Shown here in pieces: positions 17,765-56,616 of a DNA stretch of 64,000 bases (positions are counted from its first letter, which is position 1; every line of letters starts with the position of its first letter). The translations under genes were made by a program, and so were the position numbers. The notes below the pieces were generated by a model. It searched no databases, was not told the DNA's origin, and saw only the letters and a program-made list of their open reading frames with translations. This stretch comes from Bremia lactucae (lineage: Eukaryota; Oomycota; Peronosporomycetes; Peronosporales; Peronosporaceae), in the NCBI RefSeq assembly GCF_004359215.1, contig NC_090622.1:1701750-1765749 (forward strand), given 5' to 3'.

Positions 17765-20030
17765 AAAATACAACTCACTTTCCGGTTTATAATCTCGACC
17801 GTAAGCCCATCTTCATGCTCATAGGATAACGTAATTTAACATCTTCTACGACCTGTAGCTTCAACACCGATTCATTCATGAGGTATGCACCTTCAAGCTT
17901 GCGCTGCTCTTCAATTTCTTCGAGTAGGTGCCCTTGCCACTGGACTTGACGCCACTGATCCATGCGGAGAGGCTCAAGATCTGAGCGGAGCAGTCTCAGG
18001 AGCGCGTTGGGATGTAGCAGCCGCACATGGTGAGCCGAAACCCATTCGACAGGCTCGCCGGTGACGAACTGAATCTAATGGTCTTTGCCGAAGATCGTCG
18101 GAGCGGCTGACATCAGCGCACTTCTAAAAACAAACAGCGCCTTCGTAAATCGTGTGAGCTCGTGGATCTGATCCATACGTGTCCACCACTTTGCACATGC
18201 CTTATACAAGTCTGTGCACTTGTAAGGAACTGACGATCTCATCACTCTCATCCATTTTGCGCTTAACGTGATGTCTTCGTCTGACATCGTTGCACTTAGT
18301 ACGCGGTTGATCATGTACAGCTGCGCCAGTTCGGCAATCCCTAGAGCGACATCGCACTGTTGAAAAATAATGCTTCCTTCAACACCTTCTTAAGAACGTC
18401 GTCCGGTTTTATTTTTTAGCGTTCTCAGTAATCTTCAGGCGCAAACTACCTTTCCATCGGCTGCCTCGAAAAGTCCAGGAAGCATTAAGTATCGCGGCGT
18501 TCTTATTGTTCATCATCGACTCTGCCACGTTGACTATCGGTGTCGCTTTCTTCACCTTGAGAATTTTTGGCGCTTCTCGACAAAAAAGGCTGCCTCTGTT
18601 GACGACTTAAGAGCATCCGGAATCGCGATGTCGGCTGGGTTTCTCCGGGGACACTTGCCGTACTTGGCTTCGACTGTCGCTCAAATTTCGTGAACGATGC
18701 GTTTATCATTTGTAGTTCCGCAAAGTAATTCTTCGTCGTGATGACGTTAAGTTTGTGTGGGACGTGCTTTGTTATCATGCTGGAAAAGTAGACTTCGCCA
18801 CGCTTGCGCTTTGTCTTATTCTGTGACGGTCGTAAAACCATTTGTAAGCATCAGCGTCGGTTGCGTTTTGCATGTTGGACTTGGGTGGTAGTGAAATTAG
18901 ACCAGAAGACTCTTGGAACGTCGATATCGAGAGTGCGTCGTCCAAGTCAATTGCCTCTTTTGCAAGCTGATGAGTCGCAGCTTTGCGACCACGTTGAGCT
19001 CTTAGGTCGAGCTGGTTTTTCCCGTTCTCATCGATTTTTGAGTGGACTACGCTGCGAAAATCGAAGAAAAAGGGGAAAACCAGCTCGACATAAGAGCTCA
19101 ACGTGGTCGCAAAGCTGCGAATTGGTATGAGTAGCGTGCAGCACTGGTACCTTAACGAGACGCTGTGGTGATTTTGGAATTGCGCTTGCCTTGAGTTTGG
19201 CTGACTGGGCTGCACGGGTTGGTGCAGAAGGAACTGATGCGGACGGCTTCGGTTGGACACAGAGAGCGCATCCAGGTTGACCTCATGGTGAGATCAGAAG
19301 CCGGATGGAAGACAATCTGACTAAGACGGTGCATCTTTGCCGTGAGCTGGATGGAGCTTGTTGTCGACGATGACCTGGTCGGAGACTGAGTAACGGGGGA
19401 CACTTGACGGATCTAAAGAAGACACGCCAGGTCGCAGACGTGAGATCTGTTGCTGAATTTATATCGCGGAACGTGTCGTCGGTATAGCATCAGGTTCATG
19501 TCTGCGTCGAAGCCATCGTTCGAGATATCCAGGTAGAACTTGTTCGCGAGGACATCAAACGTTTTGAAAGGGCAGATACCTACGAGAATGTTAACAGACG
19601 TGCGCTCGAGGAGTAAGCACGCAGACTGTGACTTTATTTTTCGACGCAGGTTATCGCCCGGCATCTTAGAAACTTGACCAACGAGGAACTCGCTGCACAG
19701 CTAGTCGAGCACGAGAGTGCCGTGCATCTTACTCATGAGTGTGGCCATAATGTTTGGAGGGGTAACGTAGTCAACGCCTTCCCGCTCTCAATCACCACGT
19801 CGAACTTGGCGCGAGGGAGTCGGTATGGGCGAGATTGAATGATACGAGCGCTAATACAGGACCAGTCACCACCAGCTGCATAGTGACGCTCAATCGTCTC
19901 GATCGAAAAAAACGCAAGAGGCATTGAAGCCTCAACTCGACAGCGGGCTGTGTCAAAGGAAGACTTGTCTCGGCAAATGGTCTCGTGATGAAACAACAGT
20001 TCGACGATTGTCGGCCGCGACTTTCAACTG
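17765..20030 (-). pseudogene. L1-like LINE ORF1 (copy B), decayed
   Basis: Reading down the minus strand: DTARCRVEASMPLAFFSIET followed by ERHYAAGGDWSCISARI (19733-19996), then ACLLLERTSVNILVGICPFK (19413-19664), KRKRGEVYFSSMI (18503-18841) and ITLSAKWMRVMRSSVPYKCT (18075-18314). The last part is HPNALLRLLRSDLEPLRMDQ followed by WRQVQWQGHLLEEIEE (17787-18026). The same order is present in copy C (26945-29278, plus). It is split over at least six frames. ORF1 proteins of L1-like LINEs bind element RNA; the fold of this one was not recognised. An inverted repeat sits inside it at 18975-19120. Confidence 0.75.
18975..19120. repeat. Inverted repeat, 48-nt arms, about 50-nt spacer
   Basis: Arm 1 (18975-19023) starts TCGCAGCTTTGCGACC and runs to GGTTTTTCCC. 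Arm 2 (19073-19120) is its reverse complement with one substitution and one single-base indel. The spacer itself contains CGATTTT...AAAATCG, giving a nested hairpin. It lies inside the dead LINE ORF1 copy B. Confidence 0.95.
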
Positions 20031-20044
20031 AGCTATATATGGGC

Positions 20045-20125
20045 CTAGCAGCGGTTGTATAGCTCAGTCGTACACCCCACTTCTAATAGTGCTGCGGCTC
20101 AGGGTTCGAGCCCGTGTATGACCAT
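20045..20125 (+). repeat. Degenerate tRNA-like sequence
   Basis: The string 'gtatagctcagtcgtaca' resembles a tRNA D-arm/A box, and 'gggttcgagcccgtg' is a good T-arm/B box 45-50 nt farther on. A full cloverleaf with a 7-nt anticodon loop could not be drawn convincingly, so this is called a tRNA relic or SINE head rather than a gene. Confidence 0.4.
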
Positions 20126-20238
20126 AGCGGTTCTCCTCGTCAGACGAAATTTAAAAGTCACTGTAGTGGGGCAGATGCAAATTTAAACGGTCACAATTAA
20201 ACCTTCTCTATGCTTGTCGATGAATCCCACTTAAAAAG

Positions 20239-20530
20239 GGTCCGGCCCTAGTGCAGTGGTCAAGGACCGAAATGGTGTGCCATAGGTCATGGGCTTAAAA
20301 CCCGCTCCAACCAAATACAGCAAATGCAGCAGACTTTCCGATACCCTTGGGACCCCTGGTATCGTTGAGCACAGATAAGCCCCAGGGCTAGAAGTAAAAA
20401 AAATCAGAATTTAATAAACTGAAAGAAAAATTCAGATTTAAAAGGATGAGTTCTATAGTATCTTAGCCAAAGACGAGTAGGTATAGGTTGTGTTAACGAT
20501 AAATGTACGACCGACTTGCAACTGAGCTAG
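20239..20530 (+). mobile_element. SINE family A, inverted single copy
   Basis: The tRNA-like head has an exact A box TAGTGCAGTGG (about 20249-20259) and a weak B box GGCTTAAAACC. The body shares with the units at 20903-21737 the segments for 'ggtatcgttgagcacagataagccc' (in two parts here), an A-rich stretch, and the distal 'gttgtgttaacgataaa'. Near its end, 20460-20484 is the antisense of a U2 snRNA 5'-end-like sequence. It then runs into 'acttgcaactgagctagacg', the antisense of a tRNA 5' half. Orientation is opposite to the three copies at 20903-21737. Confidence 0.65.
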
Positions 20531-20902
20531 ACGGGCACTTCACAATTTGTCAGCTAACCCAAATGTCGACTTTGAGACGAACCCAGCCCAAGATTCCAGC
20601 TTTTTCTGCCCCAGCCGTCCGTTCTTTGCGCTTGCACGATGAAGAATCCATCTGCCGCCCCTTCTCTACCCTTTGCCGACGAGACGACCCTTGTCGCGTC
20701 TGGACCGGATCTTGTTCTTAAAACTTTCTCGAAGGAGAATCCAGCGATCGCGTCTTGTTCTGTCGCTCCTGGACAGTCTCTCGCTCACAAAGTAAATATC
20801 CAGTCCAAACCTGTCGCTTTTCTTGAACCCGCTCCTAACAGAAACTTTGAAATGCTCCCTCCTCCAAGTGACCCGCGGAGGCTTTGACCAATTCTGCCAA
20901 CA
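20531..20902 (+). other. Unique cassette between inverted SINE A copies
   Basis: This GC-richer stretch is bounded on both sides by the same end of SINE family A in opposite orientation. An 82-codon frame (20639-20887) beginning MKNPSAAPSLPFADETTLVA and a 72-codon frame (20503-20721) overlap it. The 82-codon product is rich in Pro, Ala and Ser and ends PPPSDPRRL. No family was recognised. It could be a captured exon or an ORF1 piece. Confidence 0.3.
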
Positions 20903-21737
20903 CGGTCGTATGTTTATCGTTAACACAACTTATACTTACTCGGCTTTGGCTAGGATATTCTACAAATTACATTTTTAGTCTATTTTTTTTCAGATTCTTT
21001 TTTCTAATTTTAATTATAGCCCTAGGGTTTATCTGTGCTTAACGATACCCGGGATCCCAAGAGTACCGGAAAGTCTGTTTCATGCATAATTTTTAGCTGA
21101 TGCGGGAATCAAATCCATGACATAGTCGATCCTTAAGCACTACATCAAGTAGGACACCTTGACCCCTGTAGCTCAGTTGCAAGTCGGTCGTGTAATAATC
21201 GTTAATACAACCTATATTTACTCGGCTTTGGCTAAGATATTAAAAAACTCATCCTTTTAATTTTGTGTTTTTTTTAACTTTTTTAATCCTGATTTAAATT
21301 CAAGCTTTATAGCTTGTCTGTGATCAACGATGCCCGGGATCCCAAGAGTACCGGAAAGTCTGTTTCATGTATATTTTTAGTTGATGCGGCAATCAAATCC
21401 ATATCCTAGTCGATCCTTAAAATCTACACCAAGGCAGGACACCTCGGCCCCTGCAGCTCGGTTACAAGTCGGTCGTATATTAATCGTTAACACAACCTAT
21501 ACCTACTCGGCTTTGGCTAAGATATTAAATAACTCATCCTTTTAAATTTGATTTTCTTCCAACTTTTTTGATTCTGATTTAAATTCAAGCCTTAGGGCTT
21601 ATCTGTGCTCAACGATACCCGGGGTCCCAATGGTATCGGAAAGTATCCTGCATATGCTATTTTTGGTTAGAGCGGGGGTAAATCCCGTGGTCTTTGAGTC
21701 AACATGTCGGTCCTTGACCACTGCACCAGATCGGACG
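20903..21737 (-). repeat. SINE family A, three head-to-tail 285-bp units
   Basis: The 'cccgggatccc' landmark recurs at 21048 and 21333, with a variant at 21618, so the period is exactly 285 bp. On the minus strand each unit has a tRNA-like head, with an A-box-like sequence and a B-box-like GGATTTGATTCCC in unit 1. Each then has a T/A-rich body and ends 'gttaacgat...cgaccg'. Each contains on the plus strand a U2 5'-end-like segment at 20932-20956, 21214-21238 and 21499-21523. Exact periodicity points to tandem duplication rather than three independent insertions. Confidence 0.75.
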
Positions 21738-21740
21738 CCT

Positions 21741-21912
21741 GCCCGTCTAGCTCATTCAGTAGAGCGCAAAACTCTTAATTTTGTAATCGTGTGTTTAAGC
21801 CCCAAGGTACGCGCTCGGATTCCAAGGTTGCTTGCTATCGTGCCACGTGCTTACCCTGCTAACTGCGCCGCTGACCTATATGCCCCTTTGCCGTCATAGC
21901 ACGCTGGTGGAG
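21741..21912 (+). mobile_element. tRNA-Lys-derived SINE, dispersed copy
   Basis: The head (21741-21813) is a degenerate tRNA-Lys: GCCCGTCTAGCTCATTCAGT at the 5' end and CTCTTAA in the anticodon loop, so anticodon CUU is kept. The T arm is mutated (GTTTAAGCC). It is followed by about 100 nt matching the DNA downstream of the tRNA-Lys genes in the 34361-37913 array ('ccaaggttgct', 'gccgctgacc', 'tatgcccctttg', 'gtcatagcac'). Similarity ends at GGTGGAG, just before the TTTT found in the array units. Interpreted as a retroposed read-through Pol III transcript. Confidence 0.75.
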
Positions 21913-22100
21913 GATGATGGTATACATACAGGCAAATGTAAGATCACCCACCAATGCTTTAAGCTAGGTGCATGGGTTCTAATTGGCCGTCTATCTCAGT
22001 TGAAAGGCTGTCTTTATTAGTAAAATTAGACAGTATGACCTATCAGTCGCCGTGCTTCACCGGCGGCACACTTGTCACTTATGTGCCTTGTCGGGCGTTC

Positions 22101-23669
22101 TCAACGCGTCCGCTTTTTCTTCTTCGCTGGGGCTTGCTCCAACTCATTAAGAAATGCCGCGGTCTGTTCTTCTACGCGCTGGTGGTGAGCTTCGGGGCTG
22201 TTGTTCGATTTCGTCGGGTGTTTCGGGTCTTCCACGAACATGATCTGGTACACACCGTTCACTCCGGTCAAGTAATCGTTCACGTCTGACATTCCCACCC
22301 ACTCGCCTTCATCCCAGACTTGGTGGAACCTGCCAGTGACATCTAACGCCATCCAATGACGGCGTCCCGTCCCGAAGTAACAGTCCACCAAATACTGTCC
22401 AGTTTCTAACTCCAACTCATAGAGAGCCAGTACGGTCCCCTTCTCCATCCCTCGAAACAAATTTCTCTTGAGGGTTTTCCGGTGCACCTCGCCTGCTGTC
22501 CCGGGGTTTAACTTGCCCACCTCGTACAGAAACGCGGCGACCTTCTGCATACGGAGCCCCTCTCCAGGCGTAATATTCTTCGACTTCGTAAACTTCTTCC
22601 ACAGATCGGTCAAAATGATACCGGCTCTCCCCGTGACCTCGTACACGGCCCGGACAGCGTCCAAAGCACAGTTGCCTTCCTCGCTCGCTGTCATCAGCCG
22701 GTGCCCGTTAGCATGGCTGCGGACATATCGCTCGAATTGGACATTGCGGTTCGTGCCGACAATCCACTCATCGACCATGTCACATATACTCCCCAGTCTG
22801 TCCTCAGGTGGGGTTTTCCTCGGCGTCCATAAAACTTCTGCCAAGGAGCCGGTGTACCGAGCAAGGTAAAAGTAATCTTCGTAGTGCTTTCGTCGGTCAC
22901 AAATGTCTTCAACTGGAAACTTCTTTCTCGTCACCTGTGTAAGGGTTCCCATGGCCGCTATCGCTCGTGGGGCGAGTGGTCTCCGCAATGCCCCCCCAGT
23001 TGACCTTGCGGCTGTTTGATTCGTTCGAATGTCGCCCTTGCCGCCCCGCAAGCCTCGCGCATATGCTACCCTTGTCTTTCGAACCTTCGGCGCCGGTGGC
23101 GTCTCTTCGTCTCCTTCAGCGTCTTTATTCTCTTCGTTCCCCAAACCGACACATCCCACGTCCGCAACCGCTGGCACACGCTGTGGCGCCGTTGCCAATG
23201 GCGGGGTGTCCTCGAGAGTCTTCCCCACCGGACGGGCTGTTTCGGCAAGGGGCTTGGACTTCGCAACTCCAATCTCAACTTCCCGGACGCGCATCGTTTT
23301 CGCTTTCGCCGGTGCAGACAGTATTTTAACCAATCGGGCGGCGCATGCCTTTGTTGAGTCAGCACACAATTGGCCAGTGTCTTCGCTCTTCGACTCCTCG
23401 GCTGCCGCCTCCCGTGGCTCGGGCACGAATTCAAAGGACCGCATCAGCTCTTCGGATTCTTCCTCGGACGGCCCATCGTCCAAAGGCTCGGGCTCGCCGC
23501 TGACCGCCTCTTCAAGACCCAGTGGGCGGACCCCCCCCGTTTCCGGCGATAACCCGCGCGCGATAGGGTCTTGAATTGGCGTAGTTGACTTCTCCGAGCC
23601 CTGGTCTGATGGCGCCGGCGCATGCGGTCTCGTGGAGCTTGACGGTCCGTTGGTGTTCGTTCCTGGCAT
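22101..23669 (-). CDS. Chromodomain-like / cysteine peptidase-like protein (intact)
   Basis: The frame is open to 23744. The chosen start is the ATG at 23669 (MPGTNTNGPSSSTRPHAPAP), because upstream codons look like leader DNA that also resembles the leader of the relative at 32900. The product is about 522 aa. Residues 1-240 are acidic, Pro/Ala/Ser-rich and probably disordered. A chromodomain-like block follows (FPVEDICDRRKHYEDYFYLA, then VLWTPRKTPPEDR). A thiol-peptidase-like domain comes next: EGNCALDAVRAVYEVTG with candidate catalytic Cys, and RRHWMALDVTGRF with candidate His and Asp, reminiscent of OTU-type enzymes. The C terminus is a nuclear-signal-like KKKKRTR. No neighbour is co-oriented. 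It could be a transposon accessory gene or a host gene; activity is inferred only from motifs. Confidence 0.7.
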   Translation of the reverse strand: MPGTNTNGPSSSTRPHAPAPSDQGSEKSTTPIQDPIARGLSPETGGVRPLGLEEAVSGEPEPLDDGPSEEESEELMRSFEFVPEPREAAAEESKSEDTGQLCADSTKACAARLVKILSAPAKAKTMRVREVEIGVAKSKPLAETARPVGKTLEDTPPLATAPQRVPAVADVGCVGLGNEENKDAEGDEETPPAPKVRKTRVAYARGLRGGKGDIRTNQTAARSTGGALRRPLAPRAIAAMGTLTQVTRKKFPVEDICDRRKHYEDYFYLARYTGSLAEVLWTPRKTPPEDRLGSICDMVDEWIVGTNRNVQFERYVRSHANGHRLMTASEEGNCALDAVRAVYEVTGRAGIILTDLWKKFTKSKNITPGEGLRMQKVAAFLYEVGKLNPGTAGEVHRKTLKRNLFRGMEKGTVLALYELELETGQYLVDCYFGTGRRHWMALDVTGRFHQVWDEGEWVGMSDVNDYLTGVNGVYQIMFVEDPKHPTKSNNSPEAHHQRVEEQTAAFLNELEQAPAKKKKRTR

Positions 23670-49090: not shown

Positions 49091-49126
49091 ATACCTTCTC
49101 GGCCTTTTGGCTAAGATCAAGTGTAG
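49091..49126 (+). ncRNA. U2 snRNA, 5' part (nt 1-36), upstream of Utopia copy 1
   Basis: It begins ATACCTTCTCGGCC and continues TTTTGGCTAAGATCAAGTGT then AG, nearly identical to the universally conserved U2 5' end. It stops at G36. Next comes AACC of Utopia instead of TATCTG. The branch-point-recognition hexamer GUAGUA (33-38) is thereby split after its fourth base. Confidence 0.95.
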
Positions 49127-56580: not shown

Positions 56581-56616
56581 ATACCTTCTCGGCCTTTTGG
56601 CTAAGATCAAGTGTAG
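56581..56616 (+). ncRNA. U2 snRNA, 5' part (nt 1-36), upstream of Utopia copy 2
   Basis: Same 36 nt as at 49091-49126, ending GTGTAG and followed by Utopia AACC. Confidence 0.95.

Follow-up and report, generated by a model that had tools for sequence, protein, structure and literature searches.

A tRNA gene-preferring SINE family of Bremia lactucae with a conserved antisense block resembling the 5' end of U2 snRNA

SINEs with snRNA-derived parts occur in crocodilians, and in the published snRNA SINE the snRNA part is said to form the 5' head and promoter. Among oomycetes, tRNA-related SINEs have been described in Phytophthora infestans as the infSINE families (Whisson et al. 2005), of which 15 are mentioned and to one of which the family treated here may be related. 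Small-RNA genes also serve as targets for LINEs. Utopia is described as a LINE that targets U2 (Kojima and Jurka 2015, PMC4640811), and the same paper names NeSL-1_TV, LIN15_SM and LIN25_SM as tRNA-specific relatives and says that U2 5' fragments ahead of Utopia were not found in Phytophthora, where their deletion was inferred.

The stretch of DNA analysed in the present study (64,000 nt, hereafter the window; G000:C13:1701750-1765749) belongs to the 115.9-Mb assembly of Bremia lactucae, which was the genome searched. An earlier note on this DNA had drawn attention to four repeat copies sharing a short segment similar to the 5' end of U2, and all four segments are indeed present, so that the observation is confirmed. 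The best of them, 21499-21523, aligns with U2 nt 1-27 at a score of 38, the alignment containing a single mismatch and a 2-nt gap, and the remaining three score 33, 29 and 28. All four belong to a SINE some 285 nt long, one end of which resembles a tRNA-like promoter of the Pol III type. The copies of this SINE in the window are collected in Table 1 together with the other features discussed below.

Table 1 Coordinates of the SINE copies, their U2-like blocks and the associated features (unprefixed positions refer to the window)
Feature	Position	Strand	Basis or remark
SINE copy a	20238..20527	(+), promoter-to-tail	BLAST with member L068: 2-284 of 284, 79.8%
SINE copy b, without 3' end	20908..21158	(-)	BLAST with L068: 1-265 of 284, 77.4%
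SINE copy c	21171..21454	(-)	BLAST with L068: 48-284 of 284 at 21171-21407, 77.8%; initial ~47 nt (up to 21454) assigned by eye
SINE copy d	21456..21739	(-)	BLAST with L068: 1-284 of 284, 80.8%
U2-like block of copy a	20460..20484	(-), U2-sense strand	U2 score 33
U2-like block of copy b	20932..20956	(+), U2 sense	U2 score 28
U2-like block of copy c	21214..21238	(+), U2 sense	Score 29; U2 nt 8-27 aligned
U2-like block of copy d, best	21499..21523	(+), U2 sense	Score 38, U2 nt 1-27
Degenerate tRNA adjoining copy d	21741..21813	(+)	RF00005, 28.5 bits vs gathering 29, E 0.0029
LINE-like tail ending at tRNA A-box site	21995-22048	(-)	
LINE-like tails ending at tRNA A-box site, other loci	L015, L056, L112, L113		
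LINE-like tails downstream of RVT_1	C3:1661163, C3:1588745, C5:2069135, C4:5608468, C3:1061780, C3:1039134, C3:41553		
U2 1-36/Utopia junctions	49091-49126, 56581-56616; L050, L086, L110		
U2 1-36 family	L082-L111; e.g. L089		22 loci without U2/Utopia ones

The 21-mer of the U2-like block was found at no fewer than 39 places of the genome at one mismatch or less, against none for its reversed control. Merging this search with the full-length one (42 rows; the best 40 of 115 candidates were scored) gave at least 58 SINE places on 20 contigs, or at least 44 without 14 copies situated in one identical repeat unit. The element is thus short (about 285 nt), dispersed and multi-copy (at least 58 places), as is expected of a SINE. 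The sampled loci contained 85 SINE HSPs, which were reduced to 42 by the removal of duplicates, and the consensus of all 42 likewise keeps the U2-like block, many of these HSPs having been retrieved via the block itself and the full-length query also containing it. In copies L071, L073, L078 and L079 the 5' part is missing and the 3' end preserved; in L052, L065 and window copy b, the 3' end is absent instead.

A repeat unit at L021-L030 includes tRNAs and a U6 gene (89 bits) along with one SINE copy. Nine of these ten loci share 3,273 bp at 100% identity, L024 agrees at 99.4% over about 2.57 kb only, and ten site pairs are spaced exactly 8,373 bp. The unit may be an array, a young element or an assembly artefact. 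An early reading that placed the identical SINE copies of this type inside LTRs found no support.

Read from promoter to tail, the SINE consensus begins GGGGTCCCACCCTGGTGTAGTGGTTAAGC, contains the B-box-like GGGTTCGATTCCCG and ends CTTTCAAC ahead of TGAGC. The A- and B-box-like motifs, recognised by eye, lie at one end of the SINE, and it is because of them that the head is regarded as tRNA-like. The tRNA searches gave weak signals: a tRNA-clan match (RF00023) on the head of L006 with 21.4 bits, under the gathering score; a weak Val call by ARAGORN on the consensus at lowered threshold, accompanied by a competing call on the opposite strand, with no tRNA at default; and, among the tRNAs compared with the head, a best match of E 0.033 over 20 nt. 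On the promoter strand TTTT occurs 10 times in total (in 9 of 32 copies) versus 159 occurrences of AAAA, a skew that is partly due to composition, the strand being A-rich. The U2-like block occupies positions 219-243 of the 286-nt consensus, about 40 nt from the 3' end, and directly precedes a conserved 3' hairpin. With the promoter-like end on one side of the SINE and the U2-like block on the other, the block is antisense to U2 and near the SINE 3' end. The view of the block as a head has consequently to be given up, the promoter-like end being at the other side, and no snRNA sequence forms a sense 5' head in this SINE.

Insertion sites were informative with respect to the tRNA that stands beside the block. 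TSDs of 11-21 bp, another property expected of a SINE, were found for 18 of the 38 HSPs having a 3' end. The antisense A-box motif GAGC lies inside 13 of these 18 TSDs, the other five being not tRNA-like, and the joined empty sites rebuild an ARAGORN tRNA gene in four of the 18 cases (one Thr, one Ala and two Phe, the last two lying 0.7 kb from each other and possibly representing one duplication). Among the 20 HSPs without a detected TSD, TGAGCTA is located on the 3' side in six. Within the window, the degenerate tRNA, an old SINE target, is preceded by copies c and d, one after the other. The TSDs, the restored tRNA genes and this arrangement in the window together identify the tRNA beside the U2-like block as target DNA; the SINE's own tRNA-like head lies at the far end. 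Of the tRNA/U2 composite SINE proposed in the earlier note, the tRNA-like end and the block resembling the U2 5' end have been retained, but the adjoining tRNA is the target and not a module. By its preferred site the SINE is a tRNA gene-specific retroelement, with a preference rather than a strict specificity because five of the 18 TSDs lie elsewhere. It often inserts at the 5' end of tRNA genes, at the A box and antisense to the gene, probably by target-primed reverse transcription with the help of a LINE, for which there is a candidate.

This candidate is a LINE-like family that has its last ~8 nt and its target in common with the SINE. Its tails stop just before TGAGC at all 16 scored places, and 7 of the 16 sit, judging by coordinates, 2-5 kb downstream of a same-strand RVT_1 match when the best 150 of 5,625 RVT_1 candidates are used; about 0.05 such pairs are expected under random placement by simple arithmetic. 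The tail family looks like a tRNA-targeting LINE, and such a LINE may mobilise the SINE. Pfam gave no match for the 96-aa C-terminal frame adjoining the tail in L015. The tail of this LINE was also considered as the source of the U2-like block and was rejected, since the tRNA-targeting LINE tails examined do not carry it.

The statistical support for the resemblance itself was evaluated on the family level. When the 23 HSPs of the full-length search are combined, their consensus is identical to U2 nt 1-27 at 24 of 25 nt, with one 2-nt gap and a score of 38, so the resemblance proposed in the earlier note survives, as that note had required of it, in a consensus of many copies. The match starts exactly at nt 1 and ends at nt 27. 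None of 5,000 dinucleotide-shuffled versions of member L011 reached the score of 38 (maximum 36, both strands), and the Gumbel fit to these shuffles gives P = 1.6e-5 for a single comparison; the chance level would be near 1e-3 if about 75 RNA-by-repeat pairs, an estimated and not a computed number, were open to a reader. With real sequence, the maximum score against U2 was 31 among 720 chunks of 290 nt (401 from the window and 319 from flanks), all taken outside the U2 and SINE zones and from loci free of a second SINE copy, with one of the ten near-identical loci retained. Control alignments of the consensus peaked at 18 with reversed U2 and at 16 with U6, and those of its body at 18 with a set of 26 distinct tRNAs. 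On the other hand, a search with the Rfam U2 model at a threshold as loose as E ≤ 10 left the block unreported in three loci and in window 19900-22200.

Two minor observations belong here. The top non-SINE chunk, window 18996-19140 (score 31), is within the chance range and overlaps an inverted repeat at 19000-19095. The divergent copy L031 is separated from U2 by a 1-nt rather than a 2-nt gap, but has more mismatches, which is too little to count.

The block is the most conserved part of the element. Agreement with the consensus in 22 HSPs of the full-length search was 0.97 in the block, 0.92 in the tail behind it and 0.87 in the rest (Wilcoxon, block above rest p 2e-5, block above tail p 3e-4), and in the consensus of 23 HSPs the block takes rank 1 among 263 25-mers. 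Old copies follow the same pattern, eight copies with agreement of 0.72-0.80 in the rest holding 0.84-1.00 in the block. Behind the block there is an 8-bp stem, GGTTGTGT / ATACRAYC. Across 34 distinct rows, 243 of 265 cells are paired, whereas shifting one side by 1-3 positions leaves only 27-61% paired. Two of the stem pairs are often variable (G-U to G-C in a ratio of 16 to 14, and U-G to U-A of 16 to 16), and no change of both partners of a pair was seen among these rows. A U2-like stem-loop fold of the block was also considered and rejected; RNAalifold gives a different, weak hairpin without compensatory changes.

The occurrence of U2 5' ends in other repeats of this genome has a direct bearing on the origin of the block. 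Weak Rfam U2 matches elsewhere were found to belong to a separate family containing U2 nt 1-36 with three changes in its common form. In 20 of its 22 loci, this U2 piece is flanked on both sides by CATATCTCTTCATG-like direct repeats of 14-16 bp (by eye), and the right-hand repeat is lost or partly lost in L082 and L087. A MULE transposase domain (E 4.5e-14) is encoded by an antisense frame of L089, and the family is a MULE-type transposon; an empty, U2-less copy of it was not found at up to three mismatches. The location of U2 1-36 between direct repeats in this family indicates that U2 5' ends get captured in this genome, and their capture and amplification there raise the prior for a U2 capture in a SINE.

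Additionally, at five places U2 nt 1-36 with its upstream flank lies directly ahead of the Utopia 5' end (GTGTAG then AACCTTTTT), and the U2 piece of the MULE-type family ends at the same nt 36. Utopia thus retains a U2 5' fragment here, unlike Utopia of Phytophthora, for which no such fragment is reported (PMC4640811). The reverse transcriptase region of the window Utopia (residues 1330-1830) shares 86% identity with a Peronospora matthiolae protein and 80% with Phytophthora ramorum proteins.

The suggested connection of the SINE with this element could not be upheld. None of the at least 58 listed SINE places (20 contigs) coincides with a listed U2 locus, and the match of the block extends neither further into U2 nor into its upstream flank. 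By BLAST, the SINE and the window Utopia copies show no similarity except for the U2 1-27 stretch upstream of Utopia, and among these copies neither a Utopia 3' end nor the U2 insertion site, which would mark a Utopia-mobilised element, is seen.

Taken as a whole, these data are best explained by a tRNA-targeting SINE that acquired its antisense block in one capture of a U2 5' end and kept it in the 3' module, an explanation that we regard as probable, and a U2 origin of the block, all versions of it together, is more probable still. The capture would have occurred once, in the ancestor of the sampled SINE subfamilies, and the block would have been retained as part of the 3' module used by the reverse transcriptase; it would not be a promoter head, nor would it be left over from an insertion next to U2. 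We infer that the block belongs to what the reverse transcriptase reads, although the tRNA-targeting LINE tails that were read are without it. The explanation is also favoured by the scarcity of TTTT on the promoter strand, the TSDs, the paired 3' stem and the copies that keep the 3' end without the 5' part; the ambiguous ARAGORN outcome, the five TSDs unlike tRNA and the copies without a 3' end count against it. What speaks against this explanation is the match itself, which is only 25 nt long with a 2-nt gap and one mismatch, and it is also the starting point of the main alternative, namely that the block is plain SINE 3'-tail sequence, retained for use by the reverse transcriptase, whose likeness to U2 is accidental or convergent. 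A scar of capture was sought in the form of a direct repeat flanking the block, and none was seen (p 0.15); an extension of the match was likewise rejected, nothing U2-like being present past nt 27 (p 0.95) or, in comparison with the standard U2 flank, above nt 1 (p 0.97). Neither a SINE predecessor without the block nor an intermediate with a fuller U2 piece was found. The missing scar and extension and the silence of the Rfam model all favour an accidental resemblance, as do the score-31 chunk in the window and the LINE tails L056, L112 and L113, in which CTTAGCC and TAGGTA likewise occur at about that position. Among four LINE tails, that of L056 does align with the SINE tail in anchored alignment (p 0.003, against 0.08, 0.39 and 0.52 for the others; 0.155 for the window tail). 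However, the block region of the LINE tails is no better than shuffled sequence in its similarity to the SINE (p 0.09-0.73), the four tails score just 10-18 against U2, none of the 5,000 shuffles attained 38 and all 720 real chunks stayed at or below 31, and an accident would also have to account for a match beginning at nt 1. Accidental resemblance is accordingly judged to be unlikely, albeit a serious competitor.

Two further explanations retain the U2 origin of the block and differ in its history or role. An ancestor inserted antisense in a U2 gene could have taken U2 nt 27 to 1 and the upstream flank as its 3' tail and moved to tRNA genes later, which would fit the antisense U2 5' end near the SINE 3' end in orientation and position, in a genome where U2 is the target of other retroelements (Utopia). 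The SINE sequence 3' of the block, however, is unlike the upstream flanks of seven U2 loci, with which its local alignments reach scores of no more than 12-18 (standard flank, p 0.97), and among the matches listed there is no SINE copy inside a U2 locus, so this history appears very improbable. The other explanation is that the block is kept through pairing of the SINE RNA with the 5' end of U2 snRNA. It is exactly the block that shows the excess conservation, and the duplex predicted with U2 1-40 has an energy of -35.7 kcal/mol versus a mean of -23.0 and a minimum of -34.3 in 500 mononucleotide shuffles, but an antisense block derived from U2 pairs with U2 by construction, and conservation runs on into the hairpin, a part without complementarity to U2. 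Selection for pairing is thus given very little credence. The same low credence applies to the combination it would imply, in which a tRNA-gene-seeking SINE would keep an antisense U2 25-mer under selection for U2 pairing in a genome with at least two captures of U2 5' ends by unrelated elements. Pairing with U2 is the boldest reading of the block's role and membership in the tail module the plainest, and a single capture retained in the 3' module remains the explanation that we prefer.

The open-access literature searched, which does not include the main Phytophthora SINE paper, yielded no such oomycete SINE, and the family itself may be known. In comparison with the described systems, the SINE is similar to Utopia in that both are retroelements of the same window aiming at a small-RNA gene, and differs from it in being non-coding, in aiming at tRNA genes and in having only the U2 1-27 stretch in common with it. 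The excess conservation of the block turns its recognition, by the reverse transcriptase or by U2, into a testable question. With the snRNA-head SINEs, the present SINE shares the presence of one part resembling an snRNA; this part is said to be the 5' head and promoter in those elements, whereas in the present one a 25-nt antisense stretch close to the 3' end takes its place. Provided that the U2 origin is true, this would be a SINE whose snRNA part is an antisense block of the 3' region and not a promoter head, and one that, in addition, prefers tRNA genes.
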